This document shows positions 7,190-30,084 of a stretch of 32,070 nt of DNA, piece after piece; position 1 is the stretch's first letter; each line of letters opens with the position of its first letter. The DNA lies in the NCBI RefSeq assembly GCF_014836935.1, contig NZ_JACSPW010000025.1, forward strand, positions 1-32,070, written 5' to 3'. The notes below the pieces were generated by a model. That model was not told the origin of the DNA. It saw nothing but the letters and a program-made list of their open reading frames with translations, and made no database searches. This DNA is from Solibacillus merdavium (GTDB lineage Bacteria; Bacillota; Bacilli; Bacillales_A; Planococcaceae). Position numbers and translations under genes: made by a program.

Positions 7190-7801
7190 ATGAGCTCAGA
7201 TAAAGACGACTTTTTAGATGCAATTGACCCTTTAGAGAGAAGTAAATTGATAAAGACTGTTAACAGTACTTTTAAAAACCTTGATCGACAATTCATGGAT
7301 GAGTTAGTAGAAATGGAAGGCTTTTTTTACGAGGAAGATGAAGAAGATATAAATTTTGAAAGTCAAAGGAATATCATGTTATTAGAATATATTAACAAGT
7401 GCGAGATACCTGAAGAGTGCGATCCTGAAGAGAATGTGTTTGATTTATCACGCAAAATTGTCCATTTTATCTTTAGAAATGGCATCATTGAAGATATGCA
7501 TGCTGGTAAATATAGTTATGATGAGTTCTTAAAGATTCCTGAAAATACACCCCTAGAAGTCATTAGCCAGCTGTCAGATAAAGATATGATGGCTTTAAAT
7601 AAGTACATGATGGACAGAGTAGGGTATCTTCTTCACTTACTACAAAATGCGGAGTATACTAAGCTTCATTATATATTGGATAAAGAAAAGTATTTCGGAG
7701 ATGACTGGGATCGTCCGGAAATAGACAACATAGAGAAGGATACAGAAGATTTATTTTTAATTGAGTTTTCTCATCAAAAGGATCATGATCATAATATTTA
7801 A
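7190..7801 (+). CDS. Conserved acidic protein of unknown function, paralogue B
   Basis: 203 residues, about 80% identical to the protein at 5479 with no gaps. The substitutions cluster at the N-terminus (residues 20-36) and the last 20 residues, while the middle (VFDLSRKIVHFIF to MDRVGYLLHL) is nearly unchanged. The ribosome site ATGGAGGC and the following bases up to the ATG are identical to those of copy A. The matched length and intact frames show that both copies have remained under selection or that the duplication is recent. Function unknown. Confidence 0.8.
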   Translation: MSSDKDDFLDAIDPLERSKLIKTVNSTFKNLDRQFMDELVEMEGFFYEEDEEDINFESQRNIMLLEYINKCEIPEECDPEENVFDLSRKIVHFIFRNGIIEDMHAGKYSYDEFLKIPENTPLEVISQLSDKDMMALNKYMMDRVGYLLHLLQNAEYTKLHYILDKEKYFGDDWDRPEIDNIEKDTEDLFLIEFSHQKDHDHNI

Positions 7802-7802
7802 G

Positions 7803-7834
7803 TACATCTTGGTTTTATCAGGATGTGCTTTTTT
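7803..7834 (+). terminator. Rho-independent terminator after paralogue B
   Basis: CATCTTGG (7805-7812) pairs with TCAGGATG (7818-7825) using two G-U pairs, and a T-run follows at 7829-7834. It is the counterpart of 6093-6123. Confidence 0.82.
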
Positions 7835-7907
7835 GATTCATTACAGTGGTTATGGCATTCTAAAATGGGGGGCGGTGAAAAACCACCATTAGAAGGGGGC
7901 TTAGTAA

Positions 7908-8387
7908 ATGATTTTAAAAAGAGGCGTAACTGGCTTTACTGCAGGAGATTTATCACTTGAACGGGATTGGGCAGCATGTACGGCTGAATTCAAAAAATAC
8001 TGCTACTCGTATGTCGGGCAGTTAAAGGGCAGGGTTTTGGCTTTTTTTGAGCCGGATATTGTTGTTGGCTATGCTCATGCCCATGTGAAAATTGATGGGG
8101 AAGCGTTCTATATTTTTTATAATGATATGTATGATTATGTAGCTTTCTCAAGTAATTGTGAGATTGGTGAATTAGACTTTAATGACCATCCATTATTGGC
8201 CGGCTTGTTTGAAAACCCTTATCAAGTATTAACAGCAGCACAATTAACAGAGCCGTTAATATTTCAAGCTAGTGGCAGTGGTAATATTGTATTGAATGAA
8301 AATGACCTGAATGATGTGGAGCTTCGTTTTATGAATCATTTTAGATCACAGACGGTTGGGGATTTAGTGTTTAATTATTGGGATTAG
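7908..8387 (+). CDS. Protein of unknown function (159 aa)
   Basis: The ATG at 7908 stands behind AGAAGGGGG at good spacing, and the frame has a normal codon pattern. The protein is soluble, mildly acidic, and rich in aromatic residues (FYIFYNDMYDYVAFSS in the middle). No family recognised. It is the last gene of the accessory cluster and faces the same way as the 203-aa paralogues, with their terminator in between, so it should have its own promoter near 7840-7890. Confidence 0.7.
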   Translation: MILKRGVTGFTAGDLSLERDWAACTAEFKKYCYSYVGQLKGRVLAFFEPDIVVGYAHAHVKIDGEAFYIFYNDMYDYVAFSSNCEIGELDFNDHPLLAGLFENPYQVLTAAQLTEPLIFQASGSGNIVLNENDLNDVELRFMNHFRSQTVGDLVFNYWD

Positions 8388-14837: not shown

Positions 14838-15095
14838 ATGCTACAACTATTTTTTAACGATGATATTTTAATTTCGATTACAGGAGATGATGAGATTTTA
14901 TCGAGAATCCCTGACAACTACGAGTATTATGATTTAATTAACATTAAAAATGAATTGGTAACAACAGAGCATTTAGTGGAGGCATTCGAGTATGCGTTAC
15001 GTAAAACGGATGAGGGTGCAGTAAACGCAGCGGCTTACTATGCTAAATTAAAAAATATGTACGAGATGAAAAAAAAATTACCGATTGAAAATTAA
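14838..15095 (+). CDS. Small conserved protein of unknown function (85 aa)
   Basis: The ATG at 14838 lies behind AAAGGGGAC and the frame ends before a strong terminator. The protein is soluble and acidic at the start (FFNDDILISITGDDEILSRIP) with a helical second half (EHLVEAFEYALRKTDEGAV). No family recognised. 14567-14837 before it shows no gene and presumably carries divergent promoters. Confidence 0.65.
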   Translation: MLQLFFNDDILISITGDDEILSRIPDNYEYYDLINIKNELVTTEHLVEAFEYALRKTDEGAVNAAAYYAKLKNMYEMKKKLPIEN

Positions 15096-15132
15096 TCGAT
15101 TATGCAAAGTAGAATCCAAAAATACGAGGCAT

Positions 15133-15182
15133 GGTAACCTGGCACAGAATTGATGTGCACAGGTATAACCAAGCTTTTTTTT
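15133..15182 (+). terminator. Terminator hairpin, copy 1 of a repeated 50-bp unit
   Basis: GGT-ACCTG-GCACA pairs with TGTGC-CAGGT-ACC with small bulges around the loop GAATTGA, and a T-run follows at 15175-15182. It ends the 85-aa gene 38 bp upstream. The core from ATGGTAACCTGGC to TATAACCA is identical to the copy at 21763-21811. Confidence 0.8.
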
Positions 15183-15249
15183 TGTTTGAAAATTAGTGGG
15201 AGCTAATATTGGAAGGTAGTCATCGCTTCGTCCTTTCATGAGCCGTCCC

Positions 15250-16269
15250 TCATGTCCCAACTAGCAAGCGTTCACCGATTTGAATGCGAGTGTCTGCATC
15301 TGAAACTATGGTTAATTGAGTTTCGTTAGCGAGCGCTGTGTAGATCATTTCTCGGCCTTGGAATTGGACGTTTTGGATTTCGACTTCAATGCCATGTTGA
15401 TTATCGGCTGTAGGTTTAAGTTGCTCTGGACGTAATGGGCATAAGCCAGCTTGTTTAAATGATGTAGAAACCTTCGGGAAATGCCACGATACATTTGGAC
15501 TTAATGCTGGGGAAAATTGATCATTGTCCCATGTTCCTTCTAATAGGTTGGCTTTACCTACAAAGTCTGCAACAAAAGGTGTTTCTGGGTAATAATAAAT
15601 TTCCTGTGGTGTGCCGATTTGTTCGATTTTTCCAGCATTCATAACGACAATTTTATCAGCCATTGCCAATGCTTCTCCCTGATCGTGCGTAACGTAGACG
15701 ATCGCTTTTTTAAACTGGCGATGAATTTTTTGAATTTCATAGCGCAATTCAATCCGCAGTTTGGCATCAAGACTACTTAACGGCTCATCCATTAAAATCA
15801 GTGCAGGTGCGGGACTTAAAGCTCGTGCAATCGCAACTCGCTGCTTTTGCCCGCCGGAAAGTTCATGGGGGTAGCGATCGGCTAAGTGACTCATGCTCAT
15901 GGCGCTTAACATTTCTTCTACGCGTACATCGGGCTGTTTTTTGAAAGCTTCACTAACAAATCGATGATGCTTTAAAGGAAATGCCACTTGCTCCTTTACT
16001 TTCATATGAGGCCATAATGCAAATGATTGGAATACTAAACTAATATTGCGTTGTTCTGGTGGTACCCGGTTCATTAATGCGTCATCCATTAAAAGTTCGC
16101 CACTCGTTGGACGTTCAAATCCAGCGAGAATTTTCAGCAGTGTCGTTTTACCACAGCCTGAAGGACCAACAATCGCCACAAATTCACCATCTTCAATTGT
16201 TAAATCGATTCCTTTCAAAACATCTGTGGAGCCGAATGATTTTTTTATATTTTTTAATTCAGTGATCAT
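15250..16269 (-). CDS. ABC transporter ATPase of the Fe3+/phosphonate/polyamine importer group
   Basis: A 339-residue ATPase that powers the import system of this operon. Walker A is GPSGCGKTT (about residue 35), the signature is LSGGQKQR (about 140), Walker B is LILMDEPLSSLD, and the switch His is in VTHDQ. Residues after about 240 form a TOBE-type substrate-sensing domain. Length and layout match FbpC/PotA/PhnT-type ATPases. It is the last gene of six and overlaps the permease gene by 11 bp. Twenty bases at its 3' side (15220-15239) repeat the ribosome site and start of the gene at 5166. Confidence 0.9.
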   Translation of the reverse strand: MITELKNIKKSFGSTDVLKGIDLTIEDGEFVAIVGPSGCGKTTLLKILAGFERPTSGELLMDDALMNRVPPEQRNISLVFQSFALWPHMKVKEQVAFPLKHHRFVSEAFKKQPDVRVEEMLSAMSMSHLADRYPHELSGGQKQRVAIARALSPAPALILMDEPLSSLDAKLRIELRYEIQKIHRQFKKAIVYVTHDQGEALAMADKIVVMNAGKIEQIGTPQEIYYYPETPFVADFVGKANLLEGTWDNDQFSPALSPNVSWHFPKVSTSFKQAGLCPLRPEQLKPTADNQHGIEVEIQNVQFQGREMIYTALANETQLTIVSDADTRIQIGERLLVGT

Positions 16270-17956
16270 GCGAAACCCTCTTTCTACGTATTATTGCACT
16301 TATCCCATAGAGTAATCCGGCGAAAATGGACATGTATAGTAAAACAATAGCGGAAAACGCAGTTGAGTATGTCGTATACCCAGCTTGCTCAAAGTTATAA
16401 ATTAGCACGCCGATTGTTTCAGCACCGCTTGACCATAGTAAGGAAGAGACCGTTAATTCTGTTAATGTATTTAAAATGACAAGAACAGAGCCGCTAATAA
16501 TACCTGGTAAAAATAGTGGTAGTAATATAGCTTTCCATTTCGCCCATACCGAAGCACCACTAATATGTGCGGCCTCCTCTAAGTCAGTAGACACTTGCAG
16601 AATGGCTGTACTGCTGCCTCGCACTTGCAAAAACATAAAACGTGTAACATAGGCAATAAGTAAAATCCAGATGGAGCCATATATGCCAGGATTCCAACCC
16701 GGAATTGGCTGCATCCATGCGAGGATCATCGCTAAAGCTAACACCATACCTGGTAATGTGTACGGAATCGCAACAATCAGCTCAAGTGTTTTCGAAAAAA
16801 TAGTGTTTTTTCGAATTCGCATATACGCAATAATCGTACCTGCAACAACACAAATAACAGCTGTGGCAATCGCTAATATCGTGCTCGTCTGTAATGCATC
16901 TCCAACTTTATTATAGTCGTAAAGTAAAAAGTTATAATTGTATAGCGTGAATGTATCGAGCGTAAGAGGCACTCCATATGTTTTTACGAACGAAGTCTTT
17001 AGCATGGAAATTAGGGGTACGATGCTAAATAATAAAACAAGTGCCCAAACGATAATTTCGACTAAGCTACGCCACTTTCCCAAATCTACTCTTGGTGTAT
17101 GATCGATATAGCTCGTTTCCATTACTTTAGAGCGACGTAAAAGCAGCCACTGAAGACCCGTAACAATAAGGGCGATTAAAGCAAGTAGCACTGATAATGT
17201 AGCAGCTCTTGCGAAAGCATTATTTCCGTAGCCGATTACTTCCTGGAAAATGGCTGTACTTAACACCGTAATATTCGCAGGAATTCCTAAAAAAGCAGGG
17301 ATGCCGAAATTATCTAAATTTGAAAGAAACGCAATCATGCCACCGCCAATAATGCCAGGCAATGATAATGGTAACGTAACGACAATGAATGTTTTGATTC
17401 GACTGCCGCCAGATGTACGAATAGCCCACTCAAGTTCTTTTGGAATTCGCTTTAACACGTTTACCGTAAACATATATACTAATGGAAAATGAGAAACACC
17501 TAATAAAAATGCGATGCCCGTCAGCGAATATAAATTAACGGTGATCGGTAAATCTTTGACGAATTGGGTCCAAGCAATCGTCACGATATAAGACGGAATA
17601 ATAAATGGTAACATAATGAAAATTTGAATCCATTTCTTTCCGCGGAAATTGGTATACGCCATAATCCAAGCGAAGGTTACACCTAATACTAAAGCTAAAA
17701 TTGTAGAGACGACGACAATGAAAGCCGTGTTTTTAAGCATATTCCAAGTGAAAGGCTCACTTAAAATGGTTGTATAATGTTTCAGAGACAATATGCCATC
17801 ATATTGAAAGCTTTGCCAAACAAGACGCAGAATTGGTACTATGAAAAATATAAAGATAAGTACCGAAGAAAGGGTAATGAGCCCTTTTTTCGATATGAGT
17901 AAAGCAGAAGATTTTTGTGTAGCTTTGATATTACTTTGAGTCGAAAAATGCGTCAT
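16259..17956 (-). CDS. ABC transporter permease with two fused membrane domains
   Basis: A 565-residue inner-membrane permease in which the two halves are joined in one chain, as in FbpB and some 2-aminoethylphosphonate permeases. About 12 hydrophobic segments are seen. Each half has its ATPase-contact loop: EWAIRTSGGSRIKTF...LPLSLPGI (about residues 175-205) and LEEAAHISGASVWAKW...LPLFLPGI (about 450-485). It starts two bases after the stop of the binding protein gene and overlaps the ATPase gene, so three transporter parts are made together. Confidence 0.9.
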   Translation of the reverse strand: MTHFSTQSNIKATQKSSALLISKKGLITLSSVLIFIFFIVPILRLVWQSFQYDGILSLKHYTTILSEPFTWNMLKNTAFIVVVSTILALVLGVTFAWIMAYTNFRGKKWIQIFIMLPFIIPSYIVTIAWTQFVKDLPITVNLYSLTGIAFLLGVSHFPLVYMFTVNVLKRIPKELEWAIRTSGGSRIKTFIVVTLPLSLPGIIGGGMIAFLSNLDNFGIPAFLGIPANITVLSTAIFQEVIGYGNNAFARAATLSVLLALIALIVTGLQWLLLRRSKVMETSYIDHTPRVDLGKWRSLVEIIVWALVLLFSIVPLISMLKTSFVKTYGVPLTLDTFTLYNYNFLLYDYNKVGDALQTSTILAIATAVICVVAGTIIAYMRIRKNTIFSKTLELIVAIPYTLPGMVLALAMILAWMQPIPGWNPGIYGSIWILLIAYVTRFMFLQVRGSSTAILQVSTDLEEAAHISGASVWAKWKAILLPLFLPGIISGSVLVILNTLTELTVSSLLWSSGAETIGVLIYNFEQAGYTTYSTAFSAIVLLYMSIFAGLLYGISAIIRRKRVSHDH

Positions 17957-17958
17957 TC

Positions 17959-18996
17959 TTATTCCCCAAATAATGTTTTAAATTCATTTTTATCTGATTC
18001 GCGTCCATTATATAGCTCTTCTACACTGCTTAATAATACATTAAGTTCATCAACACCTTTAAGTCCTTCTGGTGCTGTAACATCTGAACGAATAGGTGCG
18101 TAGCCTAAACTTGCTGCAAGCTCTTGACCTTCTTTAGAAAGAACGAAGTCGATGAAAGCTTGGGCTGCTTTTTCATCTTGAGCATCCTTTACTAATGCGA
18201 TTGGCTCCGTAATTACCGGTACACCTTCTTCCGGGTAAGTGATGGCTATTGGTGAACCTTCTTTTGCCGCATTATTTACTAAATAGTCTACAATCATTGC
18301 GTAGTTGTTTTCACCAGCTTGCAAGCCTTTTAATGCAGCACCATTTCCTTGGACAACTGTCGCTTTGCCTTCTTTTAACGCTTTATAATAATCCCAGCCG
18401 AAGTGATCGTTGCGTGTGAAAATTCCTAAATTGTATGCAGCAGCACCTGAATAAAGAGGGCTAGGCATAATCGTTTCATTCGCCTTTTCTGTTAATACGC
18501 TCCAGGATGTCGGTGCTTCTGTAACCGCATCTGTGTTATAACCGATTACTGTTGCCATTACTTTTGTGCCGTAATATGTTAAATCTTTGTCAATAAATTC
18601 TTCAGAAATATTTTCTTTCTCCGGTGAATCATAGCTTTCTAGTAAATCTTGATTTTTCAAGTTTTCAAATGTTACGTGATCTGCCAGTAACAACACATCT
18701 GCTTGAATATCGCCAGCTGTATTTTCTGCTAAAATTTTCCCAACAACTTCCTCTGTTCCTGAACGGAATAATTCAACTTCTATCTCTGGGTATAAATTAT
18801 TAAACTCTGAAATAAGTTTTGTCGCATCAGCTTCAGGCTGAGAAGTATAGAAGCTAACCGTACCATCAATTGTTGCTTCAGCTTCAGTTGCTGTATTATC
18901 GTTTGCGTTGACCTCATTTGCTGTATCTTCCTCAGTCGATCCACATGCTGCTAAAATTGCTGTTGATAATAACGCAGTCATCCATAATTTTTTCAT
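17959..18996 (-). CDS. Substrate-binding lipoprotein of the ABC importer
   Basis: A 345-residue extracellular solute-binding protein. The signal MKKLWMTALLSTAILAAC has a lipobox (ILAAC, Cys at 18), so it is anchored to the outer face of the membrane. The mature part begins with a low-complexity Asn/Thr/Glu linker and then GTVSFYTSQPEADATKLI, typical of the FbpA/AfuA/2-aminoethylphosphonate-binding cluster. It lacks a clear run of tyrosines near the C-terminus as used for iron in FbpA, which would weaken an iron role. The start lies behind AAAGGAG and overlaps the SurE stop by ATGA. Confidence 0.88.
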   Translation of the reverse strand: MKKLWMTALLSTAILAACGSTEEDTANEVNANDNTATEAEATIDGTVSFYTSQPEADATKLISEFNNLYPEIEVELFRSGTEEVVGKILAENTAGDIQADVLLLADHVTFENLKNQDLLESYDSPEKENISEEFIDKDLTYYGTKVMATVIGYNTDAVTEAPTSWSVLTEKANETIMPSPLYSGAAAYNLGIFTRNDHFGWDYYKALKEGKATVVQGNGAALKGLQAGENNYAMIVDYLVNNAAKEGSPIAITYPEEGVPVITEPIALVKDAQDEKAAQAFIDFVLSKEGQELAASLGYAPIRSDVTAPEGLKGVDELNVLLSSVEELYNGRESDKNEFKTLFGE

Positions 18997-19772
18997 TTTT
19001 TAAGAGCTCCTTTTATCAATAATTGTGTTTGTTGTAATAAATCTTGATTGATAAAGCTGACTGTTAAAGGGGTAATGGTTAAATAACCTTGTGTAATTAA
19101 TGAAAAGTCTGCATTGCCCGCTTCACTTTGTATCGTTTTCCGATAATCTTTTAGCCAATAAAAGAGCTGTCCCATCCCATCTTCAATATGAACATGTTTG
19201 TATCGTTTGACCGAAAAATCTAGCTCGGTAACGATAGGCCCTAAATAATGATTGGGCTCAACATATGGTAGATTCACGTTATAGACAGTCCCATTTTTTA
19301 AATCTTGGTGAAGAAAATTTTGTAAAAATTGATATAAATATTGTTTTGGGTACTTTAAATTTAATTTTTCCGCATCATAGGCATCTACAGAAATGGCAAA
19401 TGCTTTATAACCGAGCGAAGCACCTTCAATTGCAGCACTGATCGTCCCGGAGTAGTAGACATCCCTTCCAATATTTGAGCCGAGATTAATACCGGAAATG
19501 ATAAAGTCGATCGGTTCTTTGACAAGGACATCTAATGCTAGTTTTACACAGTCAGCAGGGGTCCCATCAATGCACCACGCATGAATATGCTCACCGAAAA
19601 GATCGGTTTTTTGAATGTTTAACGGCTTACGTAATGTAATTGAATGAGAAATGGCACTTCTTTCTTGGTCGGGACAGCAAACGTACACTTGACCAAAATT
19701 ACTTAAAACTTCGACAAGAGCACGGACACCAGGTGCAAAAATACCATCATCATTTGTAACTAAAAAGTTCAT
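18993..19772 (-). CDS. surE: 5'/3'-nucleotidase SurE
   Basis: A 259-residue metal-dependent phosphatase that removes phosphate from nucleoside 5'- and 3'-monophosphates. The family signature is present: FLVTNDDGIFAPG at the start (metal-binding NDD), DQERSAISHSITL, ISGINLGSNIGRDVYYSGTISAAIEG and a final TITPLT. No signal peptide, so it acts in the cytoplasm. It starts inside the preceding gene (23-bp overlap), behind GGAGATAATAA. SurE is usually found with stationary-phase or DNA-repair genes; its place within an importer operon is unusual and points to catabolic use. Confidence 0.92.
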   Translation of the reverse strand: MNFLVTNDDGIFAPGVRALVEVLSNFGQVYVCCPDQERSAISHSITLRKPLNIQKTDLFGEHIHAWCIDGTPADCVKLALDVLVKEPIDFIISGINLGSNIGRDVYYSGTISAAIEGASLGYKAFAISVDAYDAEKLNLKYPKQYLYQFLQNFLHQDLKNGTVYNVNLPYVEPNHYLGPIVTELDFSVKRYKHVHIEDGMGQLFYWLKDYRKTIQSEAGNADFSLITQGYLTITPLTVSFINQDLLQQTQLLIKGALKK

Positions 19773-20544
19773 TATTTATTATCTCCAGCTCCTTCAAATA
19801 GTTGAGATGTTGCGTAAACATCGTATTGTCATAGCATAAGCCTTCTAACACAACGGGCACGTTTTGTTCTTTAATGCGATGCCAAAGTGTGTGTGGCAGC
19901 AACAATTGTCCCGTACCAAGCGCAACATGAAATTTCTGTTCGGTTGCATCACTTATATGAATTTTATCGATGTTGCGTAACTGACAAAGTTTTTCTTCAA
20001 TATTATCTTGCAACCCAATATGTGCAATATCGAACGTTGTTTTAAATAATGGGTACTTCTCGAGCAGTCGATTTAATGCTTCGGGCTCAACATATAATTC
20101 TTTTGGAAGTTTCTCGAGCAGCTCAAGAGAAATACTAACGCCGGTTTTTTCACTTGCTTTATATAACGTTTTTAAACTTTCATCCATCGCTTGTTCATAA
20201 AATATACTTGAATGACTGGCAATCATTTTTCGACCCGGATGAATCGTAACCGATGGGCAGTTTAATGCTTTTGCAATATAGAGCGCGTTTATTACTTCAT
20301 GAACAGATGCCTTTCGAATTTCTTCATTGAGCGAGGCTAAATTTAAGTCCCAGCTCCGAGCATGGAGAGACACAGCTAGGTTGTATTGCTGCATAAGCTG
20401 TTTAATTTTTGGCAGCGACCAATCTTCCAATTGCATTTGCTCCATCCATAATTCAATTCCTTGTAATTCGGCATCATGTACTTTTTGAAAAATAGTTTCC
20501 AAAGGCTGTCCCCAAAATAACGTAGTTGCAGCATATAATTTCAT
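19750..20544 (-). CDS. Sugar phosphate isomerase/epimerase-like TIM barrel protein
   Basis: A 264-residue protein of the xylose-isomerase/AP-endonuclease-2 superfamily. Expected metal ligands appear in order: Glu in SISLELLEK, Asp and His in TFDIAHIG, His in KIHISDA, and Glu in VVLEGL near the C-terminus. HPGRK at about residue 100 is also typical. No export signal. It overlaps the PHP gene by ATGA upstream and SurE downstream. Members isomerise or epimerise sugars or cleave abasic DNA; alongside two phosphatases and an importer, processing of a sugar (phosphate) moiety is the best guess. Confidence 0.8.
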   Translation of the reverse strand: MKLYAATTLFWGQPLETIFQKVHDAELQGIELWMEQMQLEDWSLPKIKQLMQQYNLAVSLHARSWDLNLASLNEEIRKASVHEVINALYIAKALNCPSVTIHPGRKMIASHSSIFYEQAMDESLKTLYKASEKTGVSISLELLEKLPKELYVEPEALNRLLEKYPLFKTTFDIAHIGLQDNIEEKLCQLRNIDKIHISDATEQKFHVALGTGQLLLPHTLWHRIKEQNVPVVLEGLCYDNTMFTQHLNYLKELEIINNELFSYK

Positions 20545-21374
20545 ACGTTCACACCACTTTTTTTGCTTAATGCTACTAGGAAAGGAACAACATCGGCTTC
20601 TTCGTAAACGACAGATCCTGGTAAGTAGGGGCTTCTTGAATGCACACCATGGAAGTCGCTGCCAACTGTTTTATACAGATTATAATTGTCTGCGATTTTC
20701 TTGAAATGGATTACTTGTTCCTGACTATGAAGAGGATAAAAGACTTCGATTCCATCAATTCCTTCCGCTATTACTTTTTCTATAGAATAATCAAACTTAT
20801 AAATTCCTGGATGTGCTAACACAGCCAAACCACCAGCATGATGAATCATTTGAATTGCTTCAGCTGAGGTAGCCCCTTTTCGGACTTCAAAGGCAGGGGC
20901 ACCTTTTGTTAATAGTTTTTCATAGGCGGCTTGAGTATTTTCAAAATAGCCTAATGACACAAGTTCATCGGCGATATGGGTGCGTACAATGATTCCACCT
21001 TCAGCACGCTGTTGAACCTTTTCATAATCGATTGGATAGCCGAGTTGCTGAAGCTTAACCACTATTTTTTTAGACCAGTGAATACGTTCTTCTCTGCGCA
21101 TATTGCAATAATGGATGAGCTGTTCATTTTGTAAATCCAGACCATATCCTAAAATATGTAGTTCACCGTTTGGTCCATCTGTATTGAATTCCAACGCAGT
21201 AATTAAAGTCGATTGAGTAAATTCCGTATTTGCTAGTTGTTCATATGCTTTTATCGTGTCATGATCAGCAATCGCAAAGTGCGTTACTTGTTGTTCGCGT
21301 ATTAAAGTTACTAGTTGTTCAGGTGTCAACTCGCCATCTGAACAGTTTGTATGCATATGTAAGTCAATAAGCAT
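20541..21374 (-). CDS. PHP-domain phosphoesterase (YciV/TrpH-like)
   Basis: A 277-residue metal-dependent phosphoesterase. The PHP motifs are DLHMHTNCSDGELTPEQLV (HxH), FAIADHDT, ALEFNT, RTHIADEL, LAVLAHPG and VGSDFHG, giving the full metal-ligand set. Relatives hydrolyse nucleoside 3',5'-bisphosphates, short RNA, or cyclic phosphate intermediates. The start is ATG at 21374 behind GGAGGTG; an in-frame TTG eight codons upstream would include the ribosome site in the coding region and is rejected. This is the first gene of the six-gene operon. The start site is bracketed by an inverted repeat, and a PhoP-box-like sequence lies upstream. Confidence 0.88.
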   Translation of the reverse strand: MLIDLHMHTNCSDGELTPEQLVTLIREQQVTHFAIADHDTIKAYEQLANTEFTQSTLITALEFNTDGPNGELHILGYGLDLQNEQLIHYCNMRREERIHWSKKIVVKLQQLGYPIDYEKVQQRAEGGIIVRTHIADELVSLGYFENTQAAYEKLLTKGAPAFEVRKGATSAEAIQMIHHAGGLAVLAHPGIYKFDYSIEKVIAEGIDGIEVFYPLHSQEQVIHFKKIADNYNLYKTVGSDFHGVHSRSPYLPGSVVYEEADVVPFLVALSKKSGVNV

Positions 21375-21399
21375 TGTTATCACCTCCACCGATAACAAT
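21373..21399 (-). promoter_or_regulatory. Inverted repeat enclosing the operon's first ribosome site
   Basis: ATTGTTATC (minus strand, 21399-21391) and GATAACAAT (21381-21373) are perfect 9-bp arms around GGTGGAGGT. The Shine-Dalgarno sits in the loop and the second arm runs into the ATG. In RNA this would present the site in a 9-nt loop and bury the start; in DNA it is a dyad suited to a repressor dimer. Confidence 0.6.
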
Positions 21400-21464: not shown

Positions 21465-21493
21465 AATATCAGGTGAGTGGCTCATTTTCACAA
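21465..21493 (-). promoter_or_regulatory. Candidate promoter of the phosphoesterase-transporter operon
   Basis: On the minus strand TTGTGA (21493-21488), 17 bp, GATATT (21470-21465), about 90 bp upstream of the first start codon. Both hexamers are moderate matches. The TTNACA repeats begin exactly at this -35 and extend upstream, where a response regulator would touch polymerase. Confidence 0.4.
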
Positions 21494-21527
21494 CTTATTT
21501 ACAATTAATTAACATGCTGTCTTTACA
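21487..21527 (+). promoter_or_regulatory. PhoP-box-like array of TTNACA repeats
   Basis: TTCACA (21487), TTTACA (21498) and TTAACA (21509) lie at exact 11-bp pitch, and a fourth TTTACA begins at 21522 (13 bp on). In Bacillus the phosphate-starvation regulator PhoP binds such TT(A/C/T)ACA repeats with about 5 bp between them. The repeats read on the strand opposite to the operon, which is less usual for activated genes. In AT-rich DNA one hexamer is cheap, but three in register are not. Confidence 0.55.
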
Positions 21528-21762
21528 TTCTCTCAATAATGGGAGATCAATATGATTATTGAAATTGATTGGGGTGCGGTAATAAGGAGTACGTGCAAGA
21601 GATTTTATTGAGGAAAAGGAAAAGGGAAAGGAAAAGGAAAAGGGATTCTATTTTAAAATAATCATAATTTATGAAGATGGTTTGCTAACTGAATTTTTAA
21701 GGTAGCAGGCAATTTTGCAAATTTAGTGAGTTTGCAAAGTGGCATTTTAAAATATAAGGTAT

Positions 21763-21811
21763 GGTAACCTGGCACAGAATTGATGTGCACAGGTATAACC
21801 AGGCTTTTTTT
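21763..21811 (+). repeat. Terminator-like hairpin, copy 2, without an obvious upstream gene
   Basis: This has the same hairpin as 15133-15182, with TATAACCAGGC and a T-run at 21805-21811. No plus-strand gene precedes it within 2 kb, only the divergent start of the leftward operon. Either it ends a short untranslated RNA begun near the PhoP-like box, or it is a spread repeat. The stretch 21528-22107 has no other gene; it also holds a purine tract of GGAAAA units (about 21612-21645) and an exact 18-bp tandem repeat (21831-21866). Confidence 0.65.
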
Positions 21812-22118
21812 GTGTTTGTTAAAATCCTAGGAAGGGGGTTATCTAGTTGAAGGGGGTTATCTAGTTGTTTTTTAGCCTTTAATATAAAATCTAATATTTG
21901 AAGCCCCATAAGCTGTGCCAGCTAAAATTAAAGTAGTTGGAAAGTAAAATCTAGAAGATAGATGAGGATTCTTTGCTGAAATATACTAAAGATTATGAAA
22001 TAATGTTCTTAGACTAACGGATAGATTAGCTGATTAAAAGTTTTTTTAGGATTGCGTCAAAAATAGTATTATAAATTTATTAATGGAAGAACAGGAATCT
22101 ATCTCAAGGGGGAGGATT

Positions 22119-24032: not shown

Positions 24033-25553
24033 ATGGAAAATAAAGTTGTTAAGAAAAAAATGGTGGATAGGTTTTTAGACGGAATAGAACGAGCGGGAAA
24101 TAAACTACCAGACCCGGTTACGTTATTCGTCATTTTGGCATTTTTTGTTCTTGCGTTATCATTTGTTCTATCAAAAATTGGGGTTTCGGCCGTTAAGCCA
24201 GGCACAGACGAAACGATTGAAGTTATTAACCTGTTAAATCGTGAAGGACTTATTCAAATTATTTCAAACATGGTGACGAACTTTACGGGCTTTGCGCCAC
24301 TTGGGATCGTAGTCGTGACGATGATCGGTATCGGGGTGGCTGAAAACAGTGGCTTAATATCGGCGTTAATGAAAAAAACGGTATTAAGTGCTCCTAAAAA
24401 AATCATCTTACCTGTTATTTTATTTACAGGTCTTGTCGGGAATGTTGCCGCAGACGCAGCGTTCATTATTTTACCTCCAATTGCCGCAATGATTTTCATG
24501 AGTGTTGGACGAAATCCACTTGTTGGGTTAATCGCTACATATGCAGCAATTGCTGGGGGATTCAGTGCAAATATTATTATTTCGTCTTTAGACGTATTAT
24601 TACTCGGCATTACAGAAACGGCAGCACAATTGGTTGATCCTACATATACGGGACTTGCAACAATGAACTATTATTTCCTAATTGTTTCAACATTTATTTT
24701 AGTCATTGTCGGAAGTTGGGTAACAGTAAAATTCGTAGAGCCTCGCTTTGGTACATACAGTGGGAAAGTAGAAGTGGCTGAACCACTTACAGCTCTAGAA
24801 AATAAAGGGCTTCGCTGGGCAGGTATTGTCACGTTAGCCTATATCATTTTAATGGCGATTTTAGTCGTACCGGAATCAGGGCTTTTACGTAATCCAGTAG
24901 ATAACGGCTTTTTAAACTCACCGTTTATGACGGGGATTGTGCCGATTATGCTGTTCTTCTTCTTACTACCAGGTTTAGCATACGGCATCGTTACGAAAAA
25001 GGTGAAATCGGACCGCGATGTTGCAGAACAAATGTTTAAATCAATCGGTGACCTTTCTTCATTCATCGTATTGGCATTCGTAGCAGCGCAAATGATTGCA
25101 TACTTCGGTTGGAGTAACATTGGACCGATCTTAGCGATTAAAGGTGCAGAGTTTTTACAAAATATGAACTTTACAGGCGCACCAATGTTTATCGGCTTCA
25201 TTATTATTTGTGCATTGATCAACTTACTGATCGCAAGTGCATCTGCAAAATGGGCTTTACTGGCACCAATTTTTGTACCGATGTTCATGTATTTAAACTA
25301 TTCACCAGCCGTTACACAAATGGCATACCGTGTAGGGGATTCCATTACGAACCCGGTGACGCCGATGCTTGCATACTTTGCGATTTTACTGGCATTTGCT
25401 AGACGCTATGACAAGAATATCGGGATTGGTACGTTAATTTCAGCGTTATTGCCTTATTCAATATTCTTCGCGATTATGTGGATTATTTTATTCGCAATTT
25501 GGTTCTTGCTTGGCCTGCCATTAGGTCCTGGCGATGGTATTTTCTTAAAGTAA
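24033..25553 (+). CDS. AbgT-family transporter
   Basis: A 506-residue inner-membrane transporter with about 12 hydrophobic segments. The N-terminus (DRFLDGIERAGNKLPDPVTLFVI) and DAAFIILPPIAAMIF, SAKWALLAPIFVPMF and GDSITNPVTPMLAYF are characteristic of AbgT. Family members take up p-aminobenzoyl-glutamate or export antimetabolites such as sulfonamides. The next gene encodes an M20 amidohydrolase, the partner known from AbgA/AbgB, which supports uptake and cleavage of an acyl- or benzoyl-amino acid. The start follows AGGGGGG at 24022-24028. Confidence 0.92.
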   Translation: MENKVVKKKMVDRFLDGIERAGNKLPDPVTLFVILAFFVLALSFVLSKIGVSAVKPGTDETIEVINLLNREGLIQIISNMVTNFTGFAPLGIVVVTMIGIGVAENSGLISALMKKTVLSAPKKIILPVILFTGLVGNVAADAAFIILPPIAAMIFMSVGRNPLVGLIATYAAIAGGFSANIIISSLDVLLLGITETAAQLVDPTYTGLATMNYYFLIVSTFILVIVGSWVTVKFVEPRFGTYSGKVEVAEPLTALENKGLRWAGIVTLAYIILMAILVVPESGLLRNPVDNGFLNSPFMTGIVPIMLFFFLLPGLAYGIVTKKVKSDRDVAEQMFKSIGDLSSFIVLAFVAAQMIAYFGWSNIGPILAIKGAEFLQNMNFTGAPMFIGFIIICALINLLIASASAKWALLAPIFVPMFMYLNYSPAVTQMAYRVGDSITNPVTPMLAYFAILLAFARRYDKNIGIGTLISALLPYSIFFAIMWIILFAIWFLLGLPLGPGDGIFLK

Positions 25554-25648
25554 TATTTTAGGATTTTGAACAGTAGCCTTTAGAAGCAGGGAATTACCTG
25601 TAATGTTTATTCGAAATACAGACAACTTAGAAAATGGAGACGAGATAA

Positions 25649-26827
25649 ATGACGAATGTATTTGAAATACTAGAACAGAATTTTGATGAAATGGTCGCGA
25701 TTCGTCGTTACCTACATGAAAACCCAGAGCTTTCACATGAAGAAGTTGAGACACCAAAATATATTGCTGCGTACCATCGTGCCCTTGGACATGAAGTGCG
25801 TGAAGGTGTAGGTGGTCGTGGGGTAGTCGCTACTTTAAGAGGCGGCAAGCCAGGTAAAACGGTTGCGCTACGTGCTGATTTTGATGCGCTATCGATTCAG
25901 GAGCAAAATGATGTTCCTTATAAATCGAAAGTGGATGGAAGAATGCATGCATGTGGGCATGATGGACATACAGCGTCACTACTTGTATTAGCAAAGGCAC
26001 TGAACCAGATTCAGGACGAGATTCAAGGGAATGTCGTGTTCATCCACCAATTCGGTGAAGAAATTGCCCCAGGTGGAGCGATTCCGATGATTGAAGACGG
26101 CTGCCTGGACGGGGTCGATGTCATTTTCGGTCAGCATTTATGGGCACCGGTCGAGTATGGGAAAATTGCTGTTTGTGAAGGTCCGTTAATGGCTGCAGCA
26201 GATGGGTTTTACATTACGATTAAAGGCAAAGGCGGACACGGTGCGAAACCACAGGAAACGAAAGACTCGATTTACATTGGCTCACAATTTGTTGTGAATG
26301 CACAGCAGCTATTAAGCCGCCGTATTAATCCTGTGAAACCAGCAGTCGTTTCGATTTGTCACTTTGAAGCGTTAAACCCATTTAACGTCATTGCCGATTC
26401 TGTAAAAATTAAAGGTACTGCCCGTGTATTTGATGAAGAAACGCGCGGCATCATTGAACGTGAATTGGAAGACGTCCTGAAGGCGGCTTGCTATGTGATG
26501 AAGGCCGATTACGAATACGATTATGTACGCGGCTACTCGGCTGTCATTAATGATCCGGAGACAACAAGATTCTTCATCGAGCAGGCAAAAGAAACGCCAG
26601 GTGTCGAGGAAGTGGTCATTTGCGAACCGGAAATGGGTGGGGAGGACTTTGCCTACTATTTAGAAAAAGTACCGGGAACATTTTATTTCACAGGTGCCCG
26701 TGACCCTGAGAAAGAAGAAGCTTACCCGCATCACCATCCGAAGTTCGATATCGACGAGCGTGCACTTCTAGTAGCTGCCAATACACTTGCGAAGGCAACG
26801 TTGGAGTATTTGAAGAAGCATTCTTAA
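25649..26827 (+). CDS. M20-family amidohydrolase
   Basis: A 392-residue zinc hydrolase of the M20D/AbgB/hippurate-hydrolase group that cleaves N-acyl amino acids. Metal and catalytic residues are in MHACGHDGHTAS, FGEEIAPGGA and GGEDFAYYLEKVPG; the end HHHPKFDIDERAL is also typical. The dimerisation domain is at about 180-290 (GKGGHGAKPQETKDS). It begins 95 bp after the AbgT gene, behind ATGGAGACG, and is probably cotranscribed. Likely hydrolyses what the transporter brings in; the exact substrate is not readable. Confidence 0.92.
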   Translation: MTNVFEILEQNFDEMVAIRRYLHENPELSHEEVETPKYIAAYHRALGHEVREGVGGRGVVATLRGGKPGKTVALRADFDALSIQEQNDVPYKSKVDGRMHACGHDGHTASLLVLAKALNQIQDEIQGNVVFIHQFGEEIAPGGAIPMIEDGCLDGVDVIFGQHLWAPVEYGKIAVCEGPLMAAADGFYITIKGKGGHGAKPQETKDSIYIGSQFVVNAQQLLSRRINPVKPAVVSICHFEALNPFNVIADSVKIKGTARVFDEETRGIIERELEDVLKAACYVMKADYEYDYVRGYSAVINDPETTRFFIEQAKETPGVEEVVICEPEMGGEDFAYYLEKVPGTFYFTGARDPEKEEAYPHHHPKFDIDERALLVAANTLAKATLEYLKKHS

Positions 26828-27440: not shown

Positions 27441-29090
27441 TTATGTTCTAAACTTCGCCACAATCGCTTGCAATTGTTCGGCAAGACGAGCGAGAGAAGT
27501 AGCGGCTGCATTTACTTCTGACATAGATGCCAGTTGTTCCTCAGAAGCTGAGGCAACTGATACAGCATTGTCAGCTGTTGTTTCTGAAACCTTCGCCATT
27601 TGTAGCGACTGCTCTGAAACAGATTCTATTTTAGAATGGATGCTGTCGGATACAGTTGAAATCTGATTTACTTGATTTTGTACTTGACCAATAATTGACA
27701 ATATCTCTTCAAATGTAGCCTTTGTATCATGGGAGATGCTGATTCCTGCATCTACTCGATTCTTAACTTGCTGAATAGAAGAAACAGTTTTCGTCGTATC
27801 TGTTTCAATTTCAACTGCAATGCGTGAAATATCGTAAACAGACTGCTTTGTCTGTTCGGAAAGCTTTTTAACTTCGTCTGCAACAACAGCAAAGCCTTTA
27901 CCAGCTTCACCGGCACGAGCGGCTTCAATCGCAGCATTCAGTGCAAGTAAGTTTGTTTGATCGGAAATATCCTGAACAAGCTTTAAAATATTAACGATTT
28001 CTTTCGTACGGCTAGCAAGTAATGTTAATGAATCTGCGGTTTCCTCAACGGTAGAATGAATCAGATTCATTTGAGTTACGGTATTTTCTACATACACCGA
28101 ACCTTTTTCAATTTTTTCACTTGTTGAAGCTGACAGTGCTGTCGCTTTACCGGCCTGACTAGCAATTTCTTTTGCCTCCTCCAATACATCCTTTGCAAAG
28201 GCGGCAGAAGAGCCCGACATTTCTTTTTGCTTGTCTGCTGCATCCGATACATTTTGAATGGATGTGGAAATAAGTTCGGTTCCAAGCATTGTTTCGTCCG
28301 CGCTAGCCATGAGCTCCTCGGCAGATGCTGCAACTTGGTCTGAACTGTCAGACACATGTGTAATAATATCCCTTAAATTGTTTGTCATTTGATGGAAGGT
28401 AACTTGTAACTCACCTACTTCATCGTTTGTATCCGTGGCATTCAGTTCCACATTTAAATTCCCGGCTGCAATTTCCTTTGCACCGGCTGTTAATCGTCCT
28501 ATGCGATTGACAATTTTGTTTGTAAAATAAAGTGTTGACACGACACTCAAGAATAAAAGCACGACTGCGGCAATAATCGAAATCCATGTAATGGCTTTAA
28601 TTTTGTTGCCAAGTTCTTGTTGCATCGCGGTATAGTTTGCACTAACCTCTCGTTTTAGCTCGATTACATCATTTACAATTCCGCGAGTACGCTGTGATTG
28701 ACGCTTAATTTCTGCAACATTTGTATCCTGCAGTGAGGTAGCTGACGCTTCTGCAATATTTGCAAATTTCTCTTCAAAGCGTGTACTAATCTTTTGTTGG
28801 CGGTCTGTTGTAAAGCTGTCTTTCAGATTTTTATAAACCTCTTCTGTTCGCGCTAAATCGGTTTCAATATTATGCTTATTGTTTTCTGATACATTAATTG
28901 AATAGACACTTAGTGACTTTTGAAGGCTTTGGACCGTGCTGTTTAATTCCTCAACTGCAACAAGGGAATCCACTACTTCTTCCGTAGAGGCGTTGAGGCT
29001 CATAAGCTGGCTAATATTATAAGCAATAATACAGACAGCTAATAGTAGCGGAATCAAGGCCAACATTAATAGTTTCTGTTTTAATTTCAT
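27441..29090 (-). CDS. Methyl-accepting chemotaxis protein
   Basis: A 549-residue chemoreceptor that controls CheA. First membrane segment at about residues 8-28 ([19 protein letters not shown]), extracytoplasmic helical domain up to about 165, second segment at about 167-190 ([23 protein letters not shown]), HAMP domain to about 245, then a long coiled signalling domain. The hairpin tip has [28 protein letters not shown]. Sensor domain of about 135 residues is a four-helix-bundle type, too short for a double Cache domain. The gene starts 19 bp after a binding-lipoprotein gene and should be cotranscribed, which suggests that the receptor reads the loaded lipoprotein. Confidence 0.93.
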
Positions 29091-29109
29091 TGTTGTACGA
29101 CCCTTTCTT

Positions 29110-30084
29110 CTACTTAATTATCAGTTGCCCGTCTGCAAGCTTTTGCTGAACGTCTTCCAATAGCTTTTTTTCCTCTTCAGTTAAAGACACGACACGAATT
29201 GGCGCAAGACTTACACCATTTTCTTTAATGCCAAGCACTTTATCTTTTTCCGAAAGTGCCCCCGTTTCAGCAATTTCTTCGATTGCCTGATAAACAGCTG
29301 TATCAACTCGTTTCATCATGGAAGAAACAATTGTATCTTCTGCAAGGAAAAACTGATCGCTGTCCACACCGAATGCATGTACACCTGCTTCCTGTGCCGC
29401 TAAAATAGAGCCAACACCTGTAAAGCCGGCAGCGGGATAAATATAGTCCGCACCTTGCTCGATCATATCCCGTGCAATGGAAGCACCAAGTTGATCATCC
29501 CCGAAATCCCCGGCAAAAACAGATAAAACTTCTACATCCGGATTTATTTGTTTTGCACCTGCTATAAATCCCGTTTCAAATCGTTTAATTACCGGATTAT
29601 TTACACCACCGATAAATCCAACAACATTACTTTTTGATTTCATCGCAGCCAGTGCACCGATTAAATAGGAACCTTCATCATCTTTAAAAGTTACATTATG
29701 AATATTCGGCAAATCTGATTCTGTATCAATTAATAAAAATTGCTGTTCTGGATAGGCTTTAGCAATCGCTTCCAAATCCTCTTGAACTGTGAAGCCAATA
29801 CCAATAATTAAATCTTGTCCCTCTGCCATCAGATCTTCCAAACCTTGCTTATATGTACCGCTTATCTCAAGCTCTCGGTAATCGAAGGTAATATCCAACT
29901 CATCACGTGCTTTTTCCAGTCCTTCAAACGCAATATCTGAAAACGACTGGTCACCGAGCCCTGCATCTGACAGCATGACACCAATTTTAAATCGTTCCTT
30001 TTTTATTTCCTCTGAACTTTCTGAGCAGGCAGAAAGTAAGACTGAAACGAGAAAGCTAAATAAAAACAACCACTTTCTTTTCAT
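29110..30084 (-). CDS. BMP-family (PnrA/Med-like) substrate-binding lipoprotein
   Basis: A 324-residue lipoprotein of the basic membrane protein family, whose characterised members bind purine nucleosides. The signal peptide ends in VLLSAC (Cys at about 20). [63 protein letters not shown] and [21 protein letters not shown] are family signatures. The usual ATPase and two permease genes do not follow; a chemoreceptor gene does. It may act as a ligand-binding adaptor for chemotaxis or serve a transporter encoded elsewhere. Confidence 0.9.

Follow-up and report, generated by a model that had tools for sequence, protein, structure and literature searches.

The 32,070-nucleotide (nt) stretch analyzed here, hereafter the window, is positions 1 to 32,070 of contig NZ_JACSPW010000025.1 (assembly GCF_014836935.1) of Solibacillus merdavium, Planococcaceae. 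It contains six minus-strand open reading frames (ORFs) at 15250-21374 that encode, in this order, a PHP-family protein, a TIM barrel, SurE, a substrate-binding lipoprotein (SBP), a permease and an ATPase. We consider it likely that these genes form an organophosphate-scavenging operon controlled by PhoPR, through which an intact phosphate ester is imported and then hydrolyzed inside the cell. We infer the following course of events. Under phosphate starvation, PhoP would turn on a single transcript; a small phosphate ester would be captured extracellularly by the lipoprotein and carried in, still intact, by the fused permease and the ATPase. The PHP and TIM barrel proteins, as two putative metal-dependent phosphoesterases, would either cleave a phosphodiester or take away a second phosphate. 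SurE would then take off the last one, releasing inorganic phosphate in the cytoplasm.

Operon layout and conservation

The first gene encodes a PHP-family metal-dependent phosphoesterase (20541..21374, 277 amino acids (aa)). It is followed by an AP_endonuc_2-family TIM barrel, a probable phosphodiesterase with isomerase as the alternative (19750..20544, 264 aa), a SurE-type phosphomonoesterase of family TIGR00087 (18993..19772, 259 aa), the SBP, with SBP_bac_8/6 matches and the lipobox LAAC (17959..18996, 345 aa), a fused two-domain ATP-binding cassette (ABC) permease with PF00528 (BPD_transp_1) in two stretches (16259..17956, 565 aa), and an ABC ATPase with PF00005 (ABC_tran) and the TOBE domain PF08402 (TOBE_2) (15250..16269, 339 aa). 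Adjacent genes overlap by 4 nt (PHP/TIM), 23 nt (TIM/SurE), 4 nt (SurE/SBP) and 11 nt (permease/ATPase), and 2 nt separate SBP and permease. An initial annotation of this DNA had treated the genes as one operon, and this spacing on a single strand, together with the grouping kept in relatives, bears it out. The PHP start given there, the ATG at 21374, is preceded by a good ribosome-binding site (GGAGG) and is a better coordinate than the TTG at 21398 with which the ORF list opens. It had also been claimed that only the binding lipoprotein is exported; in agreement, a simple scan of the first 40 residues found a lipobox in the SBP and in none of the other five proteins. Because the lipobox was seen only there, PHP, TIM and SurE probably reside in the cytoplasm.

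That the six genes are kept together in relatives, which had been set beforehand as a test of the proposal, was confirmed. The TIM gene is present in 8 of the 151 genomes of the source family, its own genome included (E ≤ 1e-15), and all eight keep the six-gene order, with flanking genes that differ and with TIM identity down to 33-37% in five of them; the TIM gene of L018 (the same as L008), overlain by an antisense ORF, is counted as present. Since distant relatives have the same genes in the same order despite this divergence and the differing flanks, the grouping goes beyond chance, and a chance association was rejected on the basis of the order kept at 33% TIM identity.

A permease-profile scan yielded 60 Bacillales loci, one of which (L086, with 29% identity and another gene order) was excluded. 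In all 59 remaining loci the SBP, permease and ATPase genes are consecutive, and the enzymes are nested upstream: all three are found beside the transporter in 12 loci, which thus have the full six genes, TIM and SurE in 8, SurE in 9, TIM only in 2, and none in 28. These counts include as present a PHP gene split in two ORFs (L037), fragments of PHP (L053), SurE (L058) and TIM (L051 and L070), and a SurE gene with an 83-nt overlap (L073). In a second Bacilli family, f158, the full six genes were found in 8 of 8 loci, picked from ten already showing PHP-TIM-SurE-SBP. Within the source genus, an operon-type PHP protein (at least 93% identity) occurs in 2 of 16 genomes, and four more have only a relative of 29-35% identity. 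Although widespread and modular, the cassette is patchily distributed. No extra partner gene was shared at a fixed place beyond close relatives in the gene lists viewed, where most neighbors lack annotation. The nested sets fit a core importer whose ligand other cellular enzymes could also handle, while SurE, TIM and PHP would broaden or accelerate the use of that ligand.

PhoP-box-like site upstream of the operon

In Bacillus, PhoP recognizes a TTAACA-like consensus, and its sites may lie on either strand. We searched for the exact pattern TTNACA-N5-TTNACA-N5-TTNACA, i.e., three hexamers with an 11-nt period. The window contains one match, compared to 0.04 expected: the plus-strand site TTCACA-N5-TTTACA-N5-TTAACA at 21487-21514, which lies 112 nt ahead of the PHP start codon, on the strand opposite to the operon. 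The same site is the single perfect match in the 3.78-Mb genome, and it has the upstream direct-repeat layout expected of members of the PhoP regulon in Bacillales. PHO boxes built of 11-nt direct-repeat units are described in PMC4415409.

When one mismatch was allowed, the genome yielded five sites, the same number as a reversed control pattern, and three of the four extra sites lie inside ORFs. This search does not discriminate from the control; therefore, we used the perfect site and a scored upstream scan instead. Four TTHAYA-like hexamers with an 11-nt period were scored in the 350 nt upstream of 61 operons (the window, L013 and the 59 loci). The threshold of p ≤ 0.02 (60 shuffles each) was reached by 34 regions, spanning 18 genera; the 27 regions below it include every Bhargavaea and Shouchella locus as well as L013 (p = 0.03). 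A score of at least 17.5 was reached by 23 of 59 operons versus 8 of 231 other upstream regions taken from these loci as controls, and a score of at least 18 by 16 of 59 versus 3 of 231, in a comparison that includes related species, so that the regions are not independent. In the window and in L013 (genome G101), L027, L028 and L067, the best site lies 111-132 nt before the start, on the strand opposite to the operon. Three further sets were scored with no shuffles. Four of the eight f158 loci reached at least 17.5. As a positive control, the best sites before both above-cut-off pstS genes of the genome lie 57-62 nt upstream, with scores of 18.0 and 16.5; for a third, below-cut-off pstS-like gene, the best site lies 18 nt upstream on the opposite strand, with a score of 16.0.

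Based on these sequence data, the operon is probably under PhoP control. Phosphorus scavenging, already proposed in the initial annotation, gains its strongest support from this PhoP-box-like site, which had not been noted there.

It should be noted that L042, L044, L063 and 25 other loci have the same transporter, often with a PhoP-box-like site, and none of the three enzymes adjoining it.

Candidate ligand and enzyme functions

The three best profile matches of the SBP among solved structures are, in order, 8x1a, 6wce and 4r72, i.e., the glucose 6-phosphate (G6P) binder VcA0625 (so titled), the pyridoxal phosphate (PLP) binder P5PA and the hexose-phosphate binder AfuA. According to PMC8427247 and PMC4546632, the phosphate contacts of AfuA are Ser37, Ser148, Gly149, T150 and T60. 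The first three align with T81, S183 and G184 of the SBP, all invariant in 26 sequences; T150 and T60 correspond to A185 and D106, and these contacts are not kept. The SBP may bind phosphate esters in the way AfuA does, although it is not itself an AfuA. The 26 sequences come from loci that have the enzymes and from loci that lack them, and their strongly conserved positions suggest that they share a single ligand.

Ferric binders such as FbpA use tandem tyrosines as iron ligands. In the SBP family, this position reads D-[YF]238-x: the second residue is never Tyr in the 26 sequences, and the first is Phe in many members. We rejected iron import because the tandem tyrosines are not kept, and the best matches (VcA0625, P5PA and AfuA) agree with the earlier reading of the SBP as a phosphate-ester, rather than an iron, binder. 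An importer of ferric iron or metal citrate that came to lie beside phosphoesterase genes by chance could explain the structural ties of the SBP with FbpA, HitA and MctA; it is highly improbable in view of the tyrosine position, the PhoP-like box before many operons, and the membership of the attached enzymes in phosphoesterase families.

We consider an importer of 2-aminoethylphosphonate (2-AEP), or another phosphonate, very unlikely as well. The top NCBIfam matches of the transporter are indeed components of the putative 2-AEP transporter PhnS2-T2-U2, but all fall far below the equivalog cut-offs (PhnS2, 106.4 bits versus 392.75; PhnT2, 338.9 versus 457.7; PhnU2, 173.5 versus 593.25), and there is no phosphonatase or C-P lyase gene among the six. 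PhnW scored above its cut-off in 7 of the 38 transporter genomes chosen for this comparison, and the source genome had no such match; on this count, 2-AEP import was rejected as a general role, in line with the earlier statement that a plain phosphonate route is not supported.

The PHP protein matches PF02811 with 28.5 bits (cut-off 26.4), which places it in the superfamily. Its best NCBIfam match, RNase RNM (NF047791), scores 169.9 bits versus a cut-off of 375, and nucleoside bisphosphatase (NF041577) scores 161.2 versus 400; its nearest solved structures are 9etk, 7ug9 (a 5'-3' exoribonuclease) and 2yb1. The residues H6, H8, D13, H38, E62, H73, H188, D240 and H242, which we take to be metal ligands, align to 2yb1 and are invariant in 8 of 8 sequences. 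These relatives suggest that nucleotide-derived phosphates (3',5'-bisphosphates, or cyclic or short oligonucleotides) might be the substrate, with PHP acting like RNase AM or a phosphatase of 3'-phosphoadenosine 5'-phosphate, TIM as an endonuclease-IV-like 3'-diesterase and SurE as the nucleotidase. The exoribonuclease and 2yb1 among the PHP structures, the family name of SurE (5'/3'-nucleotidase) and the endonuclease-IV ligands of TIM speak for this route. It is nevertheless unlikely, given the PHP scores far below both cut-offs, the G6P- or PLP-binding relatives of the SBP, and the lack of a nucleosidase or nucleoside kinase gene among the six (neighboring genes are annotated in part).

The TIM barrel matches PF01261 (AP_endonuc_2) with 85.5 bits, and its best NCBIfam match, the phosphodiesterase CbiR (NF041277), is at 46.9 bits versus a cut-off of 105. 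Eight of the nine endonuclease-IV metal ligands align in TIM and do not vary among the 14 operon members compared; the equivalent of D229 is missing. The endonuclease-IV-type residues H61, H102 and H206 are invariant beside an isomerase-type E, D, H, E set. Some distant relatives of TIM occur next to importer genes. In L121, such a gene directly follows a UgpC-like gene within a UgpB/A/E/C-like set and precedes a HAD-IIA phosphatase gene, with Ugp-like scores below the cut-offs; in L122, a PhnS-like importer precedes it and a glycerol-3-phosphate-oxidase-like gene follows, both scoring below the cut-offs. In L020, a PhnD-like and a PhnE gene enclose it, an ATPase gene is also present, and an RpiR-type regulator precedes it; this importer matches TIGR01098 and TIGR01097 above the cut-offs. 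We did not follow the initial annotation in assigning TIM to the sugar moiety of the substrate: the eight ligands and the Ugp- and PhnS-like neighborhoods suggest a phosphodiesterase, although the isomerase alternative, discussed below, keeps some weight.

In some distant TIM relatives (L121, L122, L123 and L125), an acidic residue immediately precedes the last metal His (e.g., DDH). Such relatives may hold the endonuclease-IV ligand that is missing in the operon TIM.

SurE scores 215.2 bits against TIGR00087 (cut-off 135.1) and is the sole SurE match in the genome. It had been described as normally a housekeeping protein; this does not apply in the source family, because 8 of its 9 SurE genes lie in the operon, the ninth being a solitary gene in genome G082, and the other genomes among the 151 have none. 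SurE is present in 107 of 398 Bacilli genomes; among the 30 best SurE loci of the Bacilli scan, 10 have PHP-TIM-SurE-SBP and 20 do not. The operon SurE forms a separate clade: in a tree of 58 rows (start-trimmed and de-duplicated, with second SurE copies of f158 genomes left out), 37 operon rows and the G082 row split from 20 solitary rows with support 100/99. Among 22 genomes chosen from the 31 loci without an intact operon SurE, and searched for SurE only, 21 lack SurE genome-wide and the remaining one has a fragment.

The solitary G082 gene (L184, G082:C1:3405000-3419000, at 7211-8056) belongs to the operon clade and has a PhoP-box-like site with score 19.0 at 33 nt upstream; the surrounding 14 kb contains no transporter or TIM gene, and the genome yields no TIM match (E ≤ 1e-15).

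Several observations weigh against the proposed import and internal hydrolysis of a phosphate ester by these six genes. First, in 28 of 59 loci the importer has none of the three enzymes beside it, so that it does not require them as partners. Second, the AfuA sugar-binding triad H205-D206-E229 (PMC4546632) is not conserved: D206 corresponds to the invariant D237, but H205 to V236 and E229 to I262, with an invariant E264 two residues past the E229 position. Third, a structure model of the SBP (predicted local distance difference test 88.8) ties AfuA, FbpA and MctA within 1 Z unit, so that the fold search does not separate phosphate from iron binding. Fourth, the best-ranked solved folds for TIM are epimerases, including 3wqo ("D-tagatose 3-epimerase-like"), and fold searches do not separate isomerase from hydrolase. 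Finally, the same eight ligands are kept by distant TIM relatives in sugar-type contexts, i.e., beside DeoC/LacD aldolase, alcohol-dehydrogenase or RpiR-type genes (L118 and L124; L117 beside an RpiR-type regulator).

Because of the epimerase folds and these sugar-type contexts, a phosphodiesterase role for TIM is favored only moderately. The same observations, with the resemblance of the SBP to hexose-phosphate binders, would also fit a pathway for phosphorylated sugars that responds to phosphate in the same way, in which TIM would be a sugar or sugar-phosphate isomerase or epimerase while PHP and SurE remove phosphates. This pathway is rather unlikely: the three endonuclease-IV-type histidines are invariant beside the isomerase-type set, there is no sugar kinase or dehydrogenase gene among the six, and the top NCBIfam match of TIM is, below its cut-off, a phosphodiesterase. 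Both the sugar and the nucleotide route share scavenging with the proposed organophosphate operon, and differ from it in the substrate or in the role of TIM.

The loss of AfuA E229 and the sugar-context relatives with shared ligands slightly lowered our confidence in the scavenging operon and in its substrate, and raised that in the isomerase alternative. Glycerophosphodiester- or polyol/sugar-phosphate-like esters would be the most likely class, a doubtful assignment when taken by itself; the candidate substrates named in the initial annotation, and its order of the two dephosphorylation steps, we also regard as conjecture. A more specific model, which we put forward tentatively and with less than even confidence, is a modular import of intact phosphodiesters under phosphate starvation, in which TIM would found a new family of cytoplasmic small-molecule phosphodiesterases acting in series with PHP, the SurE clade would have left housekeeping to become a last-step phosphatase, and species would vary in the steps that they keep.

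Genomic surroundings and known systems

The operon is flanked by 104-nt direct repeats (15085..15188 and 21715..21818) that are 85% identical, each of them terminator-like on the plus strand by eye. The first copy begins within the last codons of a small plus-strand ORF (14838-15095). A search of the genome with bases 15105-15185 matched only the two flanking places, and the repeats are absent from the G101 locus (L013). They may be a remnant of the event that brought the operon in. Elsewhere in the window, a gene for a PnrA/Bmp-type (nucleoside-binding) lipoprotein adjoins a methyl-accepting chemotaxis protein gene (27441-30084), a possible nucleoside chemotaxis pair. An AbgT-family transporter and an M20 peptidase, paired as in aminobenzoyl-glutamate use, are encoded at 24033-26827. 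The mobile-looking segment 1093-11227 contains a Schlafen group 3 helicase, an ISL3 transposase, a DUF6933-PRiA4_ORF3 fusion and a DnaB-like helicase with a phage-type Phg_2220_C protein.

In soil and water, organic compounds make up a large pool of phosphorus, and the known scavenging by Gram-positive bacteria mostly hydrolyzes them extracellularly. If our interpretation is correct, the operon offers a testable uptake route for intact phosphate esters across many Bacillales genera and corrects two annotations, that of the "Fe3+ or 2-AEP" importer and that of SurE as a housekeeping protein. Given the conservation of the SBP in 26 aligned sequences, a single ligand screen could inform many genomes. 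The operon had been called undescribed; searches of open-licence full texts listed no earlier description of it, and no such operon is mentioned in the available parts of the P. sonchi low-phosphate work (PMC7793946), the Crocosphaera paper (PMC12260270) or a Bacillus phosphate study (PMC12676729). The scheme of an importer followed by cytoplasmic hydrolysis, however, is known from ugpBAECQ.

In that gene order, UgpQ is the cytoplasmic diesterase of glycerol-3-phosphate and glycerophosphodiester uptake. Our operon resembles ugpBAECQ in combining an ABC importer and a cytoplasmic phosphodiesterase with phosphate-starvation control, predicted here, and a distant TIM relative directly follows a UgpC-like gene in L121. 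It differs in the SBP and permease families, in the diesterase candidates, which are PHP and AP_endonuc_2 proteins rather than GDPD, and in the added SurE monoesterase. The E. coli ugp operon has PHO boxes (PMC4415409).

Among importers and binders of hexose phosphates or PLP, AfuABC, P5PAB and VcA0625 include the closest solved sequence relatives of the SBP. The Ser37, Ser148 and Gly149 contacts and D206 of AfuA are kept or have equivalents in the SBP, whereas H205, E229 and T150 are not kept; unlike these systems, the transporter described here has up to three phosphoesterase genes attached and is probably controlled by PhoP. CbiR, a cobamide-remodeling phosphodiesterase, belongs to the AP endonuclease 2 superfamily (PMC7733943). 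The operon TIM is in the same superfamily, with CbiR as its best NCBIfam match, but it reaches 46.9 of the 105 bits, and no cobamide gene is found among the six. Finally, RNase AM (RNM/YciV) and 3',5'-nucleoside bisphosphatase are the closest relatives of the PHP protein, which keeps the candidate metal ligands; in contrast to them, it scores at less than half of the respective cut-offs and is encoded in an import operon.

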